This document shows positions 25,939 through 64,000 of a stretch of DNA of 64,000 nucleotides, in pieces. The notes beneath the pieces are model-generated. The model saw nothing but the letters and a program-made list of their open reading frames with translations. It made no database searches and was not told the origin of the DNA. The stretch is from Prevotella communis (GTDB lineage Bacteria; Bacteroidota; Bacteroidia; Bacteroidales; Bacteroidaceae): the NCBI RefSeq assembly GCF_022024115.1, contig NZ_CP091792.1, positions 1,116,001 to 1,180,000 on the forward strand. Reading direction: 5' to 3'. How positions within the stretch are numbered: the first letter of the stretch is position 1; the number at the start of each line of letters is the position of its first letter. The position numbers and the translations under genes were made by a program.

Positions 25939-25948
25939 CTTTTCTCTG

Positions 25949-26020
25949 AGGTGCCTGGCGGATTCGAACCGCCGTAGACGGTTTTGCAGACCGTTGACTA
26001 AGCCACTCATCCAAGGCACC
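25949..26020 (-). tRNA. tRNA-Cys (anticodon GCA)
   Basis: 72 nt. Acceptor stem GGTGCCT/AGGCACC, anticodon stem CGGT/ACCG with loop CTGCAAA (anticodon GCA), T-arm GCGG-TTCGAAT-CCGC. The discriminator is U73, the identity element of tRNA-Cys. No CCA is encoded. Promoter box TACCTTTG at 26046-26053 on the minus strand. Confidence 0.95.
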
Positions 26021-28661: not shown

Positions 28662-28734
28662 CGAGGTGTAGCGCAGTTGGTAGCGTTCCTGGTTTGGGAC
28701 CAGGCTGTCGCAGGTTCGAGTCCTGTCACCTCGA
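28662..28734 (+). tRNA. tRNA-Pro (anticodon TGG)
   Basis: 73 nt. Acceptor stem CGAGGTG/CACCTCG, anticodon stem CCTGG/CCAGG with loop TTTGGGA (anticodon UGG), T-arm CAGG-TTCGAGT-CCTG. Discriminator A73; no CCA encoded. Confidence 0.95.
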
Positions 28735-28868
28735 CTAGCAGATAAATTAGGAAAGCATTTAGTCAAAATGGCTAAATGTTTTCTTTTTTTATTCATTTTT
28801 CTGTCAAAAAGTTTGCAAAGAAAGATTTTTTCACTATCTTTGTAGCCAGATTAATCGGCTATAGCGAT

Positions 28869-50420: not shown

Positions 50421-50461
50421 AAATTACTGCCCACTAAATTTGGTGGGCAGTAATTTTTTGA
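50421..50461 (+). terminator. Intrinsic terminator of the mut operon
   Basis: AAATTACTGCCCAC (50421-50434) pairs perfectly with GTGGGCAGTAATTT (50443-50456), followed by more T. Confidence 0.92.
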
Positions 50462-50462
50462 T

Positions 50463-50470
50463 TACCTTTG
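50463..50470 (+). promoter_or_regulatory. -7 box for kinase-nucleotidyltransferase gene
   Basis: TACCTTTG, overlapping the end of the mut terminator and 32 bases before the ATG at 50503; an ATG at 50440 is upstream of it and rejected. Confidence 0.75.
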
Positions 50471-50502
50471 CACGTGTCATTTTAGATTTAAGTTACAAAA
50501 CT

Positions 50503-52470
50503 ATGATAAAGCTATTTGTGCCAGGCCGTTTGTGCCTGTTTGGAGAACACACAGACTGGGCAGGCCATTATCGTACCATGAATGCCGATATCGAGCCTGG
50601 TGCTGCCATCGTTACTGGTATTGAACAAGGTATATATGCAGAAGTGGAGAAGTCCTCAATGTTTGAGGTGAAGTGCTCTTTCCTGAATGAATCTGGCGAG
50701 AACGCAGATTTCTCGTGTAGAATGGATGAACAGGAACTGAAACGTGTGGCACGTTCCAAGAACTTCTTCTGCTACTGTGCTGGTGTGGCATCTTATATGC
50801 TGGAATGGTATAAGGTCGGTGGCGTGAGTATTAATATCACGGATATGACGCTCCCAATGAAGAGCGGCCTGTCGTCATCGGCAGCTATCTGTGTGTTGGT
50901 AGCTCGTGCGTTCAACTTGCTGTATAACTTGAATCTGAACACCATGGGCGAGATGAATATCGCTTATGTAGGTGAGTTGCGTACCTCTTCGCGTTGTGGA
51001 CGTCTGGATCAGGCATGTGCCTTCGGTGTGAAGCCTAGTCTGATGAAGTTCGATGGCGATGAGATCGAGGTTCAGACCCTGAATGTCAAGAAACCTCTTT
51101 ATTGGGTCTTCGCTGACCTTTGTGGTAAAAAGAATACCATTAAGATTCTGGCCGACTTGAATAAAGCCTATCCTTTTGCCTCCAATGAGCGCGAACAGAA
51201 GTTGCATGATGCATTGGGACAACATAATCAGGATATTATCAATCGTGCAATTAAGTTTATGGCTGAGGGCGAGATTGAGCGTCTTGGTATGCTGATGACA
51301 GAAACTGAAAAGGTATTTGATGAACAAGTGGCTCCCCTTTGTCCGGAGGAGTTGCGTGCTCCGAAACTCAAGGCTGTTCTTGCTGATGAACATATCAAAG
51401 CTCTGACTTATGGCGGGAAGGGTGTAGGTTCGCATGGTGACGGTTCGGTGCAGTTCCTGGCTAAGGATGCGGATTGTCAGCAGCAGTTGGTCGACTATCT
51501 GAAGGCGGAGGGTATGCCTGCATATAGTCTGACGATTAATCCTGTTCATACAGTACGTAAGGCAATCATTCCTGTGGCAGGCTTTGGTACTCGTCTCTAT
51601 CCTGCGACGCGTTGTCAGAAAAAAGATTTCTTCCCTATACCTTGTCCTGATGGCATGGTGCGCCCAGTTATCCTGATTCTGCTGGAAGAACTGGTGCAGA
51701 GTGGTATTGAGGAGATTTGCCTGGTACTTGGCAGTGAGGAAGAACGTCAACTGTATACTGATTTCTTCGAACGTCCTTTGACGCAAGAGCATTTAAGTAA
51801 GTTGAATGCAGAGTGTCAGGAGTATGAGAACAGGATCTTGGATATTGGCAAACGCTTGCGCTATGTCTATCAGACAGAAAAGCGTGGCTTCGGTCATGCC
51901 GTTTATCAGGCTGCACATTTTGCAGGCAACGAACCTGTATTGCTGATGCTCGGTGATACCCTGAGCCGTTCTACATCTAATAAACCCTGTGCCCTGCAGC
52001 TTATTGAAGCATACGAACGCTATAATCGCCTGATTCTTGGCTTATATCCCGTTCCTGTGTCAACTGTGAGCCATTTCGGTATTATGTCTGGCGTATGGGA
52101 GGATAAGGACGAGCGCATCATGCACGTTCATGCTTTCGTAGAAAAGCCTAAGGCCAGTTATGCAGAGGAGTTCCTTGGTGTGAAGAATAAGCAGGGCGAC
52201 AAGGAATACTGTTCGGTATTCGGACAATATATCCTGACACCTGAGGTGTTTGCCCAGTTGGAGGCAGATATAGCTGCAGCCGACGCTGAGGGTGATATGA
52301 CAAAGGAAATCGGATTGACAGAGGCGTTGGAAGCTGTCAGAAAGCGCTCCGGTATGATAGGCTTCCGCCTGAAAGGTCTTCGTTACGATATGGGTAATCA
52401 GGGCGCATTGATTAACACTATTACGGAATTTTCGCAAAAGACAATAGAAGATAATGGTAAAAAAGCGTAG
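50503..52470 (+). CDS. Bifunctional GHMP sugar kinase - sugar nucleotidyltransferase
   Basis: 655 residues. Residues 1-350 are a GHMP kinase: PGRLCLFGEHTDWAGHY near the start, ATP loop PMKSGLSSSAA, and a late GGKGVGSHGDGSVQF motif. Residues 354-650 are a nucleotidyltransferase with IIPVAGFGTRLYPATRCQKKDFFPI shown only by its core VAGFGTRLYPAT, as in GalU-type UTP-glucose-1-phosphate uridylyltransferases. The fusion would phosphorylate a sugar at C1 and activate it to an NDP-sugar, analogous to Fkp but in the reverse domain order. The sugar is not readable; galactose, arabinose or glucuronate are possibilities. The next gene, map, overlaps its end by 17 bases. Confidence 0.85.
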   Translation: MIKLFVPGRLCLFGEHTDWAGHYRTMNADIEPGAAIVTGIEQGIYAEVEKSSMFEVKCSFLNESGENADFSCRMDEQELKRVARSKNFFCYCAGVASYMLEWYKVGGVSINITDMTLPMKSGLSSSAAICVLVARAFNLLYNLNLNTMGEMNIAYVGELRTSSRCGRLDQACAFGVKPSLMKFDGDEIEVQTLNVKKPLYWVFADLCGKKNTIKILADLNKAYPFASNEREQKLHDALGQHNQDIINRAIKFMAEGEIERLGMLMTETEKVFDEQVAPLCPEELRAPKLKAVLADEHIKALTYGGKGVGSHGDGSVQFLAKDADCQQQLVDYLKAEGMPAYSLTINPVHTVRKAIIPVAGFGTRLYPATRCQKKDFFPIPCPDGMVRPVILILLEELVQSGIEEICLVLGSEEERQLYTDFFERPLTQEHLSKLNAECQEYENRILDIGKRLRYVYQTEKRGFGHAVYQAAHFAGNEPVLLMLGDTLSRSTSNKPCALQLIEAYERYNRLILGLYPVPVSTVSHFGIMSGVWEDKDERIMHVHAFVEKPKASYAEEFLGVKNKQGDKEYCSVFGQYILTPEVFAQLEADIAAADAEGDMTKEIGLTEALEAVRKRSGMIGFRLKGLRYDMGNQGALINTITEFSQKTIEDNGKKA

Positions 52471-55553: not shown

Positions 55554-58124
55554 ATGAAAATTAAAGCTGACTACGTGAATGCTCCTCAATGGAAGGAGAT
55601 GATTGTAAAATCTCGTCTGCCAGAGGAGTTGAAATGCCTTGGTGAGATTGCACACAACTTGTGGTGGGTATGGAACTATGAGGCTCGTGACCTTTTCCGT
55701 GACCTCGATCCAGAACTCTATCACGACGTGAAGCACAACCCCGTGATGTTGCTCGAGCGTCTGAGCTTTTCGCGTAAGGAAGAGATTGTCAAGGACAAGG
55801 CTCTGATGAAGCGTATCAAGGATGTATATAAGATGTTTCGTGCTTATGTTGACGTAAAGCCCGATGCAAAGCGCCCTTCTGTAGCATACTTCTCTATGGA
55901 GTATGGTATGCACTCTGCCCTGAAAATTTACTCTGGTGGTCTTGGCATGTTGGCCGGTGACTATCTGAAAGAGGCCTCTGACTCAAATGTTGATATGTGT
56001 GCCATTGGCTTCCTCTATCGTTTCGGCTACTTCACCCAGAGCCTGTCAATGGATGGACAGCAGATTGCCAACTATGAGGCTCAGAATTTTACGTCGCTGC
56101 CTATTGAGCGCCAGCTTGACGAGAACGGACAGCCAATGGTGGTTGACGTTCCTTATATGAACTATACGGTTCATGCTTATATTTGGCGTGTCAACGTGGG
56201 TCGTATCAAGCTGTATCTGCTCGATACCGATAATGATATGAACTCAGAATACGACAAGCCTATCACTCACTCACTTTATGGTGGTGACTGGGAGAACCGC
56301 TTGAAGCAGGAAATCCTGCTCGGTATCGGTGGTGTGCTCACCCTGAAGAAACTGGGTATCAAGAAGGATATTTATCATTGTAACGAGGGACATGCTGCTC
56401 TTTGTAACCTGCAGCGTCTGTGCGACTATATCGAGGAAGGACTGACCTTCAACCAGGCCATGGAACTGGTTCGTGCCAGCGGTCTCTATACCGTACACAC
56501 ACCTGTTCCTGCAGGACACGACTACTTTGATGAGGGCCTCTTCGGTAAGTATATGGGAGGTTATCCTCAGAAGTTGGGTATCTCTTGGGATGAGTTTATC
56601 GGTATGGGTCGTACAAATCCTGATGACCACGGTGAGAAGTTCTGTATGTCAACTTTCGCTTGCAACACTTGTCAGGAGGTTAATGGCGTATCTATGCTCC
56701 ACGGCTGGGTTTCACAGAAGATGTTTGCCGGCATCTGGAACGGCTATTATCCCGAGGAGAATCACGTGGGCTATGTCACCAATGGTGTACACTTCCCCAC
56801 ATGGTGTGCTACCGAGTGGCGCCGTGTCTATGCAAAGTACTTTGATACCAAACATATGAGCGACCAGTCAAACGAGGAAATCTGGCACGGTATCTACAAT
56901 TGTCCCGATGAGGAGATTTGGGAGACCCGTATGGCCCTGAAGAATAAGTTGTTCGACTATATCAAGGAGCAGTTCCGTGATACATGGCTCAAGAATCAGG
57001 GTGATCCCTCTCGTGTGGTTGCTCTGCTTGATAAGATGAACCCCAATGCGCTGGTCATTGGCTTCTGCCGCCGTTTTGCTACCTATAAGCGTGCACATCT
57101 GTTGTTCATGGACGAGGCTCGTCTGTCTAAGATTGTAAACGATCCCGAACATCCCGTTATTTTCCTCTTTGCAGGTAAGGCTCACCCCGCAGATGGTGCT
57201 GGTCAGGGTCTGATTAAGCGTATCTACGAGATTTCTCAGCGTCCTGAGTTCCTGGGTAAGATTATCTTCCTTGAGGACTATGACTTCCTGTTGGCTCGCC
57301 GCCTTGTATCAGGTGTTGATATCTGGATGAACACGCCTACACGTCCTCTTGAGGCTTCTGGTACCTCTGGTGAGAAGGCCGAGATGAATGGTGTTGTCAA
57401 CCTCTCCGTGAAAGATGGCTGGTGGCTTGAGGGCTATCGTGAGGGTGCTGGATGGGCTCTTACCGAGAAGCGCACCTATCAGACTCAGGGCTATCAGGAC
57501 CGTCTTGATGCAGCTACTATCTATGGCTTGCTCGAGAACGAGATTATACCTCTTTATTATAATAAGAACAAGAAGGGTATCAGTGAAGGCTGGGTGAAGG
57601 TTATCAAGAACTCTATCGCTCTCATTGCTCCTCACTACACCATGAAGCGTCAGCTCGATGATTACTATGATAAGTTCTATGTAAAAGAAGCAAAGCGTTT
57701 CAAGGAAATCTCTAAGAACAACAACCAGTTGGCTAAGGATATTGCTCAGTGGAAGGAAACAGTTGCTGAGCGTTGGGATAGCATCAATGTTGTTTCTGCC
57801 GAGTGGAATATTCCTTCAACGGGTCTCGAGACAGGTCAGGAGTACACACTCCGTTATGTCATAGATGAGCAGGGACTTGAAGATGCCGTTGGACTGGAGA
57901 AGGTCAATGTATTTGTCAACAAGGAAGGTGAAGAGCGTATCTACTCTATCGAACCATTGAAGATGGTGGGTCGTGAAGGCAATAACTTTGTATTCGAAGC
58001 TAAGCTGGCTCCTCATCAGGCTGGTGCGTACAAGTGTTCAGTACGTATGTATCCAAAGAACAAGAATCTGCCTCATCGTCAGGATTTCTGCTACGTTAAG
58101 TGGTTAGAGTTGCCTCAGATGTAA
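55554..58124 (+). CDS. glgP: Alpha-glucan (glycogen) phosphorylase family protein
   Basis: 856 residues. N-terminal DUF3417-type segment ([22 protein letters not shown]), two Rossmann-like domains with [20 protein letters not shown] and [14 protein letters not shown] motifs, the PLP-region [14 protein letters not shown] and a C-terminal beta-domain (about 760-856). Members transfer glucose from alpha-1,4-glucan to phosphate, giving glucose-1-phosphate. The paired GT3 synthase fits glycogen turnover. No terminator is obvious before the leu leader. Confidence 0.93.
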
Positions 58125-58164
58125 AAAAAGTATCGATTTATTTGCATGATTGGCTGGAAATATG

Positions 58165-58172
58165 TAAATTTG
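58165..58172 (+). promoter_or_regulatory. -7 box for the leu operon leader
   Basis: TAAATTTG, about 29 bases before the leader-peptide ATG. Confidence 0.75.
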
Positions 58173-58200
58173 CAGCCGAAAAGAAGAAAAAAGTATTAAA

Positions 58201-58266
58201 ATGATACAGCAGAGCCTACTAAACGCCATTATTATTATTCGACTGCAACTATGTGGTCGGAAGTGA
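58201..58266 (+). CDS. leuL: leu operon leader peptide
   Basis: 21 codons: MIQQSLLNAIIIIRLQLC-G-R-K then TGA. Four Leu codons (two CTA-CTA in tandem) and four consecutive Ile codons in so short a peptide are diagnostic of an attenuation leader. Its ATG lies 22 bases after the expected transcription start. The last codons and the stop (58257-58266, TCGGAAGTGA) are the 5' arm of the antiterminator. A ribosome stalled at Leu or Ile leaves this arm free; one that reaches the stop masks it. Confidence 0.85.
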   Translation: MIQQSLLNAIIIIRLQLCGRK

Positions 58267-58353
58267 TGAGGCGTATATATAGAGCAGGTAAATGCTAACA
58301 TACATTTGAATCATACAAGAGCCTTTCTCACTTCCGAGTGTGAAAGGCTTTTT
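58257..58353 (+). promoter_or_regulatory. leu attenuator: antiterminator versus terminator
   Basis: Terminator: AGCCTTTC (58320-58327) with GAAAGGCT (58342-58349), extended by CAC/GTG across one mismatch, followed by T5. Antiterminator: 58257-58266 (TCGGAAGTGA) pairs perfectly over 10 bases with 58328-58337 (TCACTTCCGA), which lies in the terminator's upper stem and loop, so only one can form. GGC at 58270-58272 can extend the antiterminator to 58321-58323. Confidence 0.85.
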
Positions 58354-58397
58354 TCGTATAACGTCATAACGATTTAACGACATAAAAAGAAACTAAG

Positions 58398-59903
58398 ATG
58401 AGTGACAGATTGTTTATTTTCGACACGACACTGCGCGATGGTGAACAGGTGCCTGGATGCCAGTTGAACACCGTAGAGAAGATTCAGGTGGCTAAGGCCT
58501 TGGAGCAGTTGGGCGTTGACGTGATTGAAGCAGGATTCCCTATCAGTAGTCCGGGCGATTTTAATTCGGTAATTGAGATTTCAAAGGCCGTCACTTGGCC
58601 TGTTATCTGTGCGTTAAGCAGAGCTGTACAGCGCGATATTGACGTGGCAGCCGAAGCGTTGAAGTATGCCAAGCACAAACGTATCCATACCGGTATCGGC
58701 ACAAGTGACGAGCATATCAAGTTCAAGTTCAATAGCACGCGTGAGGAGATTCTTGAGCGAGCTGTAGCTGCGGTGAAGTATGCGCGCCGTTTTGTGGACG
58801 ATGTCGAGTTCTATGCCGAGGATGCCGGACGAACGGACAATGAGTACCTGGCTCGTGTCGTTGAGGCCGTCATCAAGGCCGGTGCCACGGTGGTCAACAT
58901 CCCAGATACGACAGGCTATTGTCTGCCTGAAGAGTTTGGACAGAAAATACGTTATCTGAAGGAGCATGTTGATAATATCGATCGTGCTATCATTTCCACC
59001 CACTGTCACAATGACTTAGGTATGGCTACGGCCAACACGCTTGAAGGTGTGCTCAATGGTGCCCGTCAGGTTGAGGTCACAATCAATGGTATAGGTGAAC
59101 GCGCCGGTAATACTAGTTTGGAGGAGATTGCCATGATATTGAAATGTCACAAGTCAATCGATATCGAGACCAATATCAACACACAGAAAATCTATCCTAC
59201 ATCTCGTTTGGTTTCCAGTCTTATGAATATGCCTGTCCAGCCCAATAAGGCTGTCGTAGGACGTAATGCTTTTGCTCATTCCAGCGGTATCCATCAGGAT
59301 GGTGTGTTGAAGAACGTGCAGACCTATGAGATTATGGATCCTAAGGATGTTGGTATTGACGACAACTCTATTGTATTGACCGCACGTAGTGGTCGTGCTG
59401 CCTTGAAACATCGTCTGCATATCAATGGCGTTGACGTGAGCGATGAGGAGAAGGTCGATAAGATTTACGAGAAATTCCTGGCTCTGGCCGATTTGAAAAA
59501 AGAGGTAAGCGATGCCGATGTGCTGATGTTAGCGGGTGCCGATACGGCTGAGCAACATGCTGTGAAACTCGACTTCCTGCAGGTTACCACGGGTAAGGGC
59601 GTGAAGAGCGTGGCTTCTATCGGACTGGATATCAGTGGACAGAAGTTTGAGGCTGCATCCAGTGGCAATGGTCCGGTGGATGCCGCTATCAAGGCTCTGA
59701 AGAAGATTATTATGAAGCACATGACATTAAAGGAATTCACCATTCAGGCTATCTCCAAGGGGTCTGATGATGTAGGTAAGGTACATATGCAGGTAGAGTA
59801 CCAGGGTGCTTTGTACTATGGCTTTGGTGCTAATACCGACATTGTGACCGCTTCCGTGGAAGCCTATATAGACTGTATCAATAAATTCAAGAAAGCAGAA
59901 TGA
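58398..59903 (+). CDS. leuA: 2-isopropylmalate synthase
   Basis: 501 residues. Catalytic barrel signature [15 protein letters not shown] at the N-terminus, [16 protein letters not shown], and a C-terminal LeuA regulatory domain (about 390-501) that binds leucine for feedback inhibition. Condenses acetyl-CoA with 2-ketoisovalerate. First gene of the operon behind the attenuator; leuC starts four bases before its stop. Confidence 0.95.
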
Positions 59904-61276
59904 ACACACTTTTCGATAAGATATGGGACGCCCATGTGGTACAGACCGTGACCGATGGTCCCACACAACTTTATATTGATCGCCTCTACTGTCATGAGGT
60001 GACTTCACCACAGGCCTTCGATGGTATGCGTGCCAGGGGCTTAAAGTGTTTCCGTCCGGAACAGATTGTCTGTATGCCCGACCATAACACGCCTACTCAT
60101 GATCAGGATAAGCCAATTGCCGACCCTGTCTCAAAGAAACAGGTGGATACCTTGGAACGAAATGCCCGTGAGTTTGGCTTGAAGCATTTTGGTATGATGT
60201 CAAAAGATAATGGCATCATCCATGTGGTAGGTCCGGAGAAAGGACTCTCGTTGCCCGGTATGACGATTGTATGTGGCGACTCTCATACCTCTACCCATGG
60301 TGCCATGGGTGCTGTTGCTTTCGGTATCGGTACCAGTGAGGTCGAGATGGTCATGGCTTCACAATGTATCCTGCAGCAGAAACCAAAGTCTATGCGAATC
60401 ACCATCAACGGACAGTTGGGTAGGGGAGTGACGGCCAAGGATGTTGCCCTCTATCTCATGGCGAAACTGACAACCAGTGGTGCCACGGGATATTTTGTTG
60501 AGTATGCAGGTGAAGTGGTTAAGAACCTGTCGATGGAAGGTCGCCTGACGCTCTGTAACCTTTCTATTGAGATGGGGGCGCGTGGAGGTTTCATAGCTCC
60601 TGACAACGTGACCTTTGATTATATAAAAGGTAAGGAATACGCCCCCAAGGGTGAGGATTGGGATAAGGCCATGGCCTATTGGCGCACGCTGAAAAGTGGC
60701 GATGACGCTGTGTTTGATAAGGAACTGGTGTTTGATGCTGCGGATATCGAACCTCGTATCACTTATGGCACCAATCCCGGTATGGGAATCGGTATTACAG
60801 AGTCAATTCCTGCTGAGGGTGATGCCAATTTTAATAAATCTTTGCAGTACATGGGCTTCAAGGAAGGTGAGAAACTGTTGGGCAAGAAGATTGACTATGT
60901 CTTCCTGGGCGCCTGTACCAACGGCCGTATCGAGGACTTCCGTGCCTTTGCGTCTATCGTGAAAGGACGTCAAAAGGCTGCTGATGTGGTGGCATGGCTG
61001 GTACCTGGCTCATGGGCTGTTGACAAGCAGATTCGTGAGGAAGGACTTGATAAGGTTCTCGAAGCTTCAGGCTTTGAAATCCGTCAGCCTGGTTGCTCAG
61101 CCTGTTTGGCGATGAACGATGACAAGGTTCCTGCAGACAAGTATGCCGTATCAACGAGCAACCGTAATTTTGAGGGCCGTCAGGGACCTGGTGCACGCAC
61201 CATCCTCTGTTCCCCCCTTGTAGCTGCCGCTGCAGCAGTCACTGGAGTAATCACTGATCCACGTACATTATTATGA
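59900..61276 (+). CDS. leuC: 3-isopropylmalate dehydratase large subunit
   Basis: 458 residues, aconitase family. Cysteines for the 4Fe-4S cluster in [11 protein letters not shown] and [23 protein letters not shown] and PDHNTPT are typical. With LeuD it isomerises 2- to 3-isopropylmalate, and citramalate in the isoleucine route. Overlaps leuA and leuD by four bases each. Confidence 0.96.
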
Positions 61277-61863
61277 AACAGAAATTTGACATCATCACAT
61301 CTACCTGCGTGCCCTTACCTTTAGAGAACGTAGATACAGACCAGATCATTCCCGCCCGTTTCCTGAAAGCCACGGATAAAGAGGGCTTTGGCGATAATCT
61401 CTTCCGTGACTGGCGCTATCGTCCCGATGGCAGTATCGTTGAGGATTTTGTTCTCAATGACCCGAAGTACAAAGGATGTATCCTCGTGGCAGGTAAGAAT
61501 TTTGGTTCTGGTAGCAGTCGTGAACATGCCGCCTGGGCTATCGCTGGCTATGGCTTTCGTGTGGTTATCAGCAGCTTTTTTGCTGATATCCATAAGAACA
61601 ACGAACTGAATAACTTTGTTCTTCCTGTGCAGGTGAGCGAAAACTTTCTGCAGGAACTCTTCCAGACAATTCAGAATAATCCCGATACTCAGGTCGAGGT
61701 TGATCTGCCTAATCAGACCGTGACCAATAAAGCAACTGGCAATAGCGAGCATTTTGATATTAATGGCTATAAGAAGCACTGTCTGATGAATGGTCTTGAT
61801 GATATCGATTTCCTCGTGGCCAATAAAGATAAGATAGAAAAATGGGAACACCAGAGAAACTGA
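61273..61863 (+). CDS. leuD: 3-isopropylmalate dehydratase small subunit
   Basis: 196 residues. [13 protein letters not shown] at the start and [22 protein letters not shown] are the swivel-domain hallmarks. Partner of LeuC. The next gene overlaps its end by 22 bases, implying coupled translation. Confidence 0.95.
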
Positions 61864-63431
61864 ATACGTATCAGCGCATTTTGCCCTTTGTGGAGATTAT
61901 GGACTCCACGCTCCGTGATGGCGAACAGACCAATGGCGTGTCGTTCCTGCCTCACGAGAAGTTGGTGATGGCGCGCAAACTGCTCTCCGATGTCAACGTA
62001 GACCGTATCGAGGTGGCTTCTGCACGTGTCTCTGAGGGAGAACACGAGGCCGTCTCCAAAATATGTGCCTATGCCCAGAAGATGGGACTCTTGAGTCGTG
62101 TTGAGGTCTTAGGCTTTGTTGATGGTGGACAGAGCATCGACTGGATTGACAGTTGTGGCGGTCGTGTCGTAAACTTGTTGGCCAAGGGTTCACTGAAACA
62201 CTGCACTCATCAGTTGCACAAGACGCCAGAAGAGCATATCAACGATATTCTTAGTGAAGTGGAATATGCTGCCAGCAAGGGCATCAGTGTGAATCTCTAT
62301 CTGGAGGACTGGTCTAACGGCATGAAGGACTCCCCAGAGTATGTATATCAACTGATGGATGCAATAACCTCTTCCTCCCCCTTGGGGAAACAGGGAGGGG
62401 TCCAGCGTTTCATGCTCCCTGACACCCTTGGCGTGATGAACCCTTTGCAGGTCATCGAGTATTTCCGTAAGATGATAAAGCGTTATCCTGATGTCCATTT
62501 TGATTTCCATGCACATAATGATTACGACCTTGCGGTAAGTAATTCCTTGGCAGCCGTATTGAGTGGTGCCAAGGGGCTGCATGTCACCGTGAATGGGCTG
62601 GGTGAGCGTTGTGGTAATGCGCCGATGGCTTCTGTTCAGGCTATTCTGAAGGATCAGTTCCATGCCAAGACAAATATTGTAGAGAGTCAGCTCAATGACC
62701 TCTCACGTATGGTCGAGAGCTTTAGTGGCATCACGGTAGCCCCCAACCAGCCTATCGTTGGTGAGAATGTGTTTACGCAGGTGGCTGGTGTGCATGCCGA
62801 TGGCGACTCGAAGGATAAGCTTTATTATAACGAGTTGGTTCCAGAACGTTTCGGACGTAAGCGTGAATATGCCCTGGGAAAGAATTCGGGTAAGGCTAAT
62901 ATCGCTAAGAATCTTGAGGAACTGGGGTTGGAACTCACGCCTGAGCAGACACGCCGTGTCACGGAACGTATCACAGAACTGGGTGACAAGAAGGAGATTG
63001 TGACACAGGAAGACCTGCCCTTTATCGTCAGTGACGTCTTGAAGCACGACGGTTCCGAGGATAAGGTCAAACTGATCAGTTACATGGTCTCTACGGCTTA
63101 TGGCCTGCGCCCGGGTGCTAATGTCAAGGTAGAAATCAATGGTCAGCAGTATGATGGCAGTGCTGTGGGTGATGGTCAGTATGACGCTTTTGTCAAGGCG
63201 CTTCGTTATATTTATAAGAAGTATCTGAACCGTACGTTTCCTGTCTTGGCCAATTATCAGGTTACCATTCCGCCGGGCGGACGTACCGATGCCTTGGTAC
63301 AGACAGTCATCTCTTGGCATTATAATGGGGGTATCCTGCGCACACGCGGACTGGATGCTGACCAGACGGAGGCTGCTATCAAGGCCACGTTCAAGATGCT
63401 GAACATCATCGAAAACGAGATTCCTAATTAG
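61842..63431 (+). CDS. Second LeuA-family synthase (citramalate/2-isopropylmalate synthase)
   Basis: 529 residues, DRE-TIM family: DSTLRDGEQTNGVSF, HFDFHAHNDYDLAVSNSLAA and NGLGERCGNAP, plus a C-terminal regulatory domain. It diverges from LeuA and is placed in many Bacteroidales leu operons, where a (R)-citramalate synthase role (pyruvate + acetyl-CoA, toward isoleucine) is plausible; substrate choice is not proven from sequence. Residues 178-187 (SPLGKQGG region) are encoded by a GC-rich palindromic repeat at 62374-62401 that appears inserted before the conserved RFMLPDTLG. Confidence 0.85.
   Translation: MGTPEKLNTYQRILPFVEIMDSTLRDGEQTNGVSFLPHEKLVMARKLLSDVNVDRIEVASARVSEGEHEAVSKICAYAQKMGLLSRVEVLGFVDGGQSIDWIDSCGGRVVNLLAKGSLKHCTHQLHKTPEEHINDILSEVEYAASKGISVNLYLEDWSNGMKDSPEYVYQLMDAITSSSPLGKQGGVQRFMLPDTLGVMNPLQVIEYFRKMIKRYPDVHFDFHAHNDYDLAVSNSLAAVLSGAKGLHVTVNGLGERCGNAPMASVQAILKDQFHAKTNIVESQLNDLSRMVESFSGITVAPNQPIVGENVFTQVAGVHADGDSKDKLYYNELVPERFGRKREYALGKNSGKANIAKNLEELGLELTPEQTRRVTERITELGDKKEIVTQEDLPFIVSDVLKHDGSEDKVKLISYMVSTAYGLRPGANVKVEINGQQYDGSAVGDGQYDAFVKALRYIYKKYLNRTFPVLANYQVTIPPGGRTDALVQTVISWHYNGGILRTRGLDADQTEAAIKATFKMLNIIENEIPN
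62374..62401 (+). repeat. Palindromic repeat inside second leuA-family gene
   Basis: CTCCCCCTTGGGGAAACAGG and the next eight bases form a CTCCC..GGGAG hairpin like the stems of the repeats at 14907, 17625 and 24850 but without the GGGGGTGAGTC tail. Frame preserved. Confidence 0.6.
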
Positions 63432-63463: not shown

Positions 63464-64000
63464 ATGAAACTAAAAATAGCTATTCTTCCGGGCGACGGTA
63501 TCGGACCGGAGATTATGAAACAAGGTGTGGCTGTGCTCAATGCTGTAGCAGAGAAATGCGGTCATGAGTTTACTTACGAGGAAGCGTTGGTAGGTGCCTG
63601 TGCCATTGAGGCCTGCGGTGATCCTTATCCGGAGGCTACCCATCAGGCGTGTATGAATGCAGATGCCGTGCTCTTTGCGGCAGTGGGCGATCTGAAATAT
63701 GATAATAACCCCACGCTGAAGGTACGTCCTGAGACTGGTTTGCTGGCTATGCGTAAGAAGCTTGGCCTCTTTGCCAACGTGCGTCCGGTGGCTACATTCG
63801 ACTGCCTCCTGCATAAGTCACCCCTGAAGGAGGAACTGCTTCGCGGGGCAGATTTCGTGGTGCTGCGCGAACTCACTGGTGGTATGTACTTCGGGGAAAA
63901 ATATCAGGACAATGATAAGGCATACGATACCGATGTATATACGCGCCCAGAGATTGAGCGTATCCTGAAGGTTGCTTTCGAGATGGCTATGCAGCGTCGT
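63464..64000 (+). CDS. leuB: 3-isopropylmalate dehydrogenase, cut by window end
   Basis: 179 codons of the N-terminal part are seen. [21 protein letters not shown] is the family start, shown by its core [33 protein letters not shown] carries the conserved substrate-binding arginines. Oxidatively decarboxylates 3-isopropylmalate and can serve the citramalate branch. It starts 32 bases after the previous stop. The C-terminus lies outside the window. Confidence 0.95.

Follow-up and report, generated by a model that had tools for sequence, protein, structure and literature searches.

A probable ribosome-mediated attenuator with Ile and Leu control codons before the leu operon of Prevotella communis and other Bacteroidales

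The leuA-leuC-leuD-cimA-like-leuB operon of Prevotella communis is very probably controlled by a ribosome-mediated transcription attenuator that senses charged tRNA-Ile and tRNA-Leu. The leader was analysed within a 64,000-nucleotide stretch of the genome (the window), for which an earlier note had proposed attenuation of this kind from the letters alone; conservation, covariation and codon placement lend the proposal good support and make Ile/Leu-dependent attenuation the likely mode of control. By computation, we observed the individual elements, the mutual exclusion of their helices, and their conservation and covariation. The leader possesses an Ile/Leu-rich ORF, an intrinsic terminator, an exclusive antiterminator and a 1:2 hairpin, all traits of the attenuator class. 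The further trait that a stalled ribosome masks strand 1, and not strand 2, is displayed by the control codons except the last Leu codon.

The leader elements lie between the end of an upstream phosphorylase ORF at 58124 and the start of leuA at 58398 (Table 1). The succession described previously, from a promoter box through a 21-codon leader ORF with four Leu and four consecutive Ile codons to a terminator before leuA, is confirmed in its coordinates. The four Leu codons of the 21 are CTA, CTA, CTG and CTA; the consecutive Ile codons at 58228-58239 are all ATT, and a fifth Ile codon (ATA) occupies position 2. We take TAAATTTG to be a -7 box and the TTTG at 58141..58144 to be a candidate -33 element, in line with the Bacteroidetes promoter consensus. 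A promoter and terminator scan by the standard consensus reported neither the -7 box, a type which that consensus does not cover, nor the leader terminator; the latter was detected by strand folding and by a separate custom terminator scan.

Table 1. Features of the leader and of the operon downstream, in window positions.
Feature	Coordinates	Strand	Basis
TTTG, candidate -33 element, 20 nt 5' of the -7 box	58141..58144	+	Sequence; Bacteroidetes consensus
TAAATTTG, presumed Bacteroidetes -7 type promoter box (TAnnTTTG)	58165..58172	+	Sequence; Bacteroidetes consensus
Leader peptide ORF, MIQQSLLNAIIIIRLQLCGRK, 21 codons, TGA stop 58264-58266	58201..58266	+	Sequence; related peptides in relatives
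Strand 1, partner of strand 2 in the 1:2 hairpin	58223..58247	+	Leader folding, mask folding, relatives
Control codons Ile-Ile-Ile-Ile-Arg-Leu	58228..58245	+	Ribosome-mask folding; codons versus structural boundary in 69 leaders
Strand 2, holding antiterminator arm 58257-58266 and extension 58268-58272	58252..58274	+	Folding, covariation
Intrinsic terminator hairpin and six-T run (58349-58354)	58319..58354	+	Folding z = -5.2; covariation
Strand 3, terminator 5' arm and loop; partner of strand 2 in the antiterminator	58321..58337	+	Folding, covariation
leuA, 2-isopropylmalate synthase	58398..59903	+	TIGR00973 and NF002086 above cut-off
leuC	59900..61276	+	TIGR00170 above cut-off
leuD	61273..61863	+	TIGR00171 above cut-off
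cimA-like, citramalate synthase type (isoleucine route), tentative name	61842..63431	+	Best family NF042433, 619 bits, cut-off 950
leuB, partial, runs past the window end	63464..64000	+	Best match TIGR00169, 228 bits versus cut-off 353

Structurally, the leader offers two mutually exclusive arrangements. The last ten bases of the leader ORF (TCGGAAGTGA, 58257-58266) are, as had been claimed, perfectly complementary to TCACTTCCGA at 58328-58337. In 2000 dinucleotide shuffles of the leader, duplexes with the terminator arm reached 9 bp once and 10 bp once, and none was longer. The antiterminator extends beyond these ten pairs, with GAGGC at 58268-58272 also pairing with 58321-58325. Folding of the whole leader gives z = -6.4, and the structure of lowest energy combines a long 1:2 hairpin with the terminator. 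Within the 1:2 hairpin, the strand carrying the Ile-Arg-Leu codons (58223-58247) is paired with the antiterminator strand (58252-58274). The earlier note had described the device as simpler than the E. coli leaders and in need of no separate pause hairpin; this strong 1:2 hairpin, which it had overlooked, contradicts that description. The hairpin is that of classical attenuators, and the device is no simpler than these. Among the 69 leaders that pass the test described below (window included), strand 2 is paired upstream at a probability of at least 0.5 in 68. The local z value of the hairpin averages -2.31 and falls below -2 in 41 of the 69 and not in the other 28; the 1:2 hairpin is thus common among passing leaders, yet not clearly above chance in each one.

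In the proposed mechanism, an untranslated leader RNA would fold into 1:2 and then into 3:4, the terminator, leaving the operon off. Were a ribosome to stall on one of the four Ile codons, or on a Leu codon located 5' of 58246, it would cover strand 1 and so leave strand 2 free to pair with strand 3, and the resulting antiterminator would allow the operon to be transcribed. A ribosome that reaches the stop codon would instead cover strand 2, upon which 3:4 would form and the operon would again be off. The scheme supposes that the leader is translated and that the ribosome is coupled to the polymerase, and it predicts read-through that would depend on starvation.

We modelled these states by folding the RNA with the ribosome footprint kept unpaired at successive codons, an approach whose folding energies, fixed footprint and equilibrium assumptions are all crude. 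For a short RNA ending before the terminator 3' arm and carrying no ribosome, the probability of the 1:2 hairpin is 0.95 and that of the antiterminator 0.0003. Placing the A site at one of the Ile codons (58228-58237), at Arg 58240 or at Leu 58243 raises the value for the antiterminator to 0.92-1.00; it reaches 0.90 at the early Leu codons (58216, 58219) and 0.89 at Gln 58246, and stays at or below 0.01 at the last Leu codon (58249) or later. A stall on the control codons would, in this model, free the antiterminator arm. At full length, equilibrium favours the terminator at Leu 58216 (0.84), Leu 58219 (0.81), the first Ile (0.69) and Gln 58246 (0.83), so these codons would be effective only if folding follows the order of transcription. 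All five ribosome footprints tried gave the same outline; with the smallest (12, 9), the last Leu codon is permissive as well. With four of the five, that codon (CTA, 58249) lies too near the arm for a stall there to bring about antitermination. In many relatives, the model gives a free strand 2:strand 3 pairing of 0.7-0.8 without a ribosome, so that the order of folding has to account for the off state in them. The E. coli leaders thrL, leuL, ilvL, trpL and hisL served as positive controls: the antiterminator response was clear in thrL, weak in leuL and irregular in ilvL, the crude scan assigned strand 2 ambiguously in trpL and hisL, and the terminator probability never fell below 0.8 in any of them. 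Given these uneven responses and the terminator that is never lowered, the mask model is only a guide.

The arrangement is not confined to the window. Two sets of relatives were assembled, namely the best 80 of at least 588 LeuA loci, and 56 upstream regions from the 59 genomes with LeuA among 148 genomes of the order that were searched; omitted from the latter were the window's own locus and two 5'-truncated LeuA matches. In the first set, 79 of the 80 loci are labelled Prevotellaceae, Bacteroidaceae, Bacteroidales or a genus of these, the exception (L033) being labelled 'uncultured bacterium'. A region passed the fixed test with an ILV run of at least 3, at least 6 ILV residues, a stem of at least 11 and a drop in antiterminator probability of at least 0.25. 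Both a terminator and a candidate ORF could be identified in 90 of the 137 leuA upstream regions (136 relatives and the window). The test was passed by 69 of the 137, a sample that includes the best 80 of at least 588 loci: 45 of the 81 in the Prevotellaceae set drawn from those loci, window included, and 24 of the 56 at order level. Of the 68 that did not pass, 45 have no called terminator, two no ORF, and 21 fail the criteria. The scan overlooked some of these 68, as L043 and L049 carry the leader and, by eye, a plain terminator, and L030, L036 and L041 look genuine; in some others the element seems to be absent. Within the 69, the ORF is wrong at L062 and L067 and doubtful at L099 and L118, all four still being counted. 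As a whole, the switch was found to recur in several Bacteroidales families, whose related sequences are not independent of one another.

As a control, we applied the same test to the regions upstream of mechanically defined ORFs of at least 200 aa from the window and L082-L136. Three of 221 pass, and two of these three are leuA with an extended start, leaving 1/219. Since 168 of the 221 control regions have no terminator and many lie inside other genes, the fairer comparison takes only regions with a called terminator, of which 69/92 pass for leuA and 1/51 for the control. At the level of the phylum, 20 of 51 matches outside the order were taken, and none of these 20 genomes has a convincing leader directly 5' of leuA, which is not necessarily the first gene of its operon there. 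Likewise, no convincing leader with terminator stands directly before ilvD, hisG or two aspartokinase genes (L164-L167) of the same genome, which are perhaps not operon-first. An Ile-rich short ORF 5' of one aspartokinase gene was dropped for lack of a supporting structure (z -0.18). A His-codon pattern has 15 matches in the same genome.

Conserved Leu/Ile codon runs and compensatory changes in the 10-bp helix had been put forward beforehand as checks on the attenuator, and both are present. Across the 69 leaders, Ile, Leu and Val have a share of 0.78-0.87 at the positions three to five codons 5' of the structural boundary; this share drops to 0.59 at the last permissive codon and is 0.17 one codon further on. 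The run of Ile/Leu codons comes to an end at the point from which a ribosome would start covering the arm. For covariation, the doubtful L062, L067, L099 and L118 were removed, and 40 of the remaining 65 leaders were aligned (22 at order level and 18 of the 43 others). Seven of the ten antiterminator pairs have changed on both sides in these 40 leaders, in which 84.0% of antiterminator cells are paired, against 80.6% in shuffles. The covariation score exceeds all 500 shuffles and all slid versions; the count of further pair types is not above shuffles (278 of 500), and only 34.6% of cells retain the outermost pair. The extended antiterminator is paired in 83.3% of cells and shows a both-sided change at 7 of 14 pairs; one slid version has 8 such pairs against these 7, but only 44% of its cells are paired. 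In the terminator, 94.4% of cells are paired and 10 of 12 pairs have changed on both sides.

An alignment-free comparison of each arm with its own and with swapped partners, in which both were given the same freedom, points in the same direction. At order level (n=24), strand 2 forms 7.75 Watson-Crick pairs with its own terminator arm and 6.07 with those of others, a difference attained in 0 of 10000 permutations. In Prevotellaceae (n=45), the values are 8.84 and 8.65 (160 of 10000 permutations), a weak result since the arms there are nearly uniform.

The arm core could be placed at 59 loci, where it is read in frame 0 (mostly Gly-Ser-Asp) at 48, in frame 1 at 8 and in frame 2 at 3, two of the last being the wrong-ORF loci L062 and L067. 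Frame 1 ends at a TGA inside the arm (the window, L002, L027, L060, L061, L087, L089 and L098), and in L022 and L100 the stop adjoins the arm. An antiterminator arm built into the stop of the leader, singled out by the earlier note, is thus real in this genome, but it does not mark a separate design, as it occurs at only 8 of the 59 loci and is shared by E. coli thrL. When the 59 loci are placed on a LeuA tree, the stop-in-arm state takes 7 changes, also 7 without L062 and L067, and 8 once L043, L049 and L052, whose leaders end alike, are added. Over all 92 tree rows, with unlabelled rows counted as 'not', 8 changes result, at least 4 of them enforced by strongly supported branches of what is a quick tree with 33 of its 89 inner branches open. 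Retention of the arm sequence across these switches of frame points to the RNA, and not the peptide, as the target of selection. The switches bear on an alternative that sees in the conserved ORF the gene of a small protein with an independent role. The C-terminal GSD-x-x-C/Y pattern of many Prevotellaceae leaders would suit such a protein; at other loci these bases fall in a different frame, two of the frame-2 ORFs being doubtful, and the 7 changes on the tree also speak against it, so that we consider this explanation scarcely credible. The case illustrates how a leader peptide could pass for a conserved small protein.

Two other explanations compete with ribosome-mediated attenuation. The hairpin could be the ordinary terminator of the upstream phosphorylase gene, whose ORF ends about 200 nt 5' of it, with the leuA promoter farther downstream and the leader ORF accidental. 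The -7 box, however, sits between the phosphorylase gene and the leader, and 66 of the 69 passing loci carry a TAnnTTTG box no more than 75 nt 5' of the leader start, compared with 5.7% of base shuffles; between hairpin and leuA there is no TTTG. With the antiterminator covarying and the same arrangement in only one of the 51 other regions with a called terminator, we regard this explanation as very improbable. Alternatively, the switch may be real and its effector a protein, a small RNA or a metabolite (a riboswitch, T-box or protein-binding type) in place of the ribosome, given that a pair of alternative structures does not in itself reveal what is sensed. In Rfam searches with the leader and with the whole window, no family matched the leader at its gathering score. 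A search of 58120-58450 at E up to 5 returned three matches, all far below their gathering scores, and no T-box among them. The run of Ile/Leu codons stops at the structural boundary across the 69 leaders, and an effector of another kind is about as improbable as the phosphorylase terminator. Attenuation by the translating ribosome is accordingly the reading followed below.

A wider reading of the attenuator, to which we give limited credence, is that the arm is kept across Bacteroidales while the frame flips repeatedly and shifts the stop from within the arm to a place well beyond it, that the position of the stop is an evolutionarily tuned knob for basal read-through, and that the switch implies a close coupling between ribosome and polymerase. 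Attenuator theory, as argued in PMC1183508, predicts less basal read-through when the stop is placed far downstream in region II. Natural leaders with varied stop positions and a conserved arm would offer a direct test of stop placement against basal expression. The motif Arg-Leu-Arg/Lys occurs in 8 of the 69 passing leader peptides, and the window has Arg-Leu-Gln. An Arg-Leu-Arg motif is linked to antibiotic-induced ribosome stalling in part of PMC8632094; in the leaders, Arg-Leu-Arg/Lys may be a mere consequence of 1:2 pairing.

The operon makes Leu and, via the cimA-like gene, probably Ile, which fits the mixed Ile/Leu control codons. The cimA-like product (61842-63431) scores below the curated cut-off of its best family and may represent a distinct group of citramalate synthases. 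Ile codons are also present in the L135 leader, which precedes a leu operon without a visible cimA. Among the 56 order-level loci, the test is passed by 20 of 35 with cimA in view and by 2 of 9 with leuB but no cimA, a tally made by hand in which one of the two cimA-less passes (L099) has a doubtful ORF; in the remaining 12, neither gene is visible or the region is incomplete. The co-occurrence of leader and cimA is suggestive; as it is confounded by relatedness, we left it out of the case for attenuation.

Compared with known systems, the leader resembles E. coli attenuators in its layout. In thrL (K-12 MG1655), strand 2 (GGTGCGGGCT) likewise pairs with the terminator 5' arm; it begins 9 bases ahead of the stop codon and ends on the first base of that codon, placing the stop in the arm, and a stall 5' of strand 2 likewise raises antiterminator pairing in mask folding. 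In contrast to the window, thrL has Thr/Ile codons and precedes thrA, and we claim no relation in sequence. The leuL and ilvL leaders share with the window a Leu- or Ile/Val/Leu-rich peptide, a branched-chain operon and an intrinsic terminator. Their predicted arm lies inside the ORF (from -31), as in most Bacteroidales relatives. A run of four Leu codons characterizes leuL, whereas the window has four Ile codons before a leu operon with a cimA-like gene.

Within the phylum, Bacteroid-trp RNA (RF01692) appears as a candidate cis-regulatory RNA of Bacteroidetes in Table 1 of PMC2864571; its covariance model has no match to the leader and none in this genome. Leader-peptide attenuators have been proposed from strong clues before amino-acid operons of Flavobacterium psychrophilum, which belongs to the same phylum and would use the same principle, with no leu leader named in the relevant part of PMC9723704. 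Short ORFs in 5' UTRs of B. thetaiotaomicron are called reminiscent of leader peptides in a section of PMC7366714. The actinobacterial LEU element is similar in having a Leu-codon ORF before leuA, but is outlined in part of PMC1262725 as a pseudoknot whose base stem pairs the Leu codons with the leuA Shine-Dalgarno box, and not as a terminator switch. Before 2010, ermC aside, no leader-peptide systems were known outside Proteobacteria and Actinobacteria, by a statement in PMC2965389, whose own case comes from Firmicutes.

The mechanism is thus known, being classical attenuation; the Bacteroidales leu leader itself, matched by no Rfam family, appears to be new. The abstract of Vitreschak 2004 is said to mention candidate attenuators in Bacteroidetes/Chlorobi, and an earlier prediction of such a leader is possible. 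Our literature search found no description of a Bacteroidales leu leader, the comparative papers Vitreschak 2004 and Lopatovskaya 2010 being outside its coverage. If the mechanism holds, Bacteroidales, which comprise many gut and rumen bacteria, would use textbook ribosome-mediated attenuation for branched-chain amino acids. To our knowledge, coupling of ribosome and polymerase has been little tested in the Bacteroidetes phylum. Because attenuation requires a ribosome close behind the RNA polymerase, the leader would provide a ready reporter of transcription-translation coupling in Bacteroidales.

Elsewhere in the window, a 676-aa ORF at 50440-52470 has motifs suggesting a sugar kinase of the galactokinase type with a nucleotidyltransferase domain after it. 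The window further contains genes for tRNA-Cys (25948-26020, minus strand) and tRNA-Pro (28662-28735, plus strand), both unrelated to the leader.
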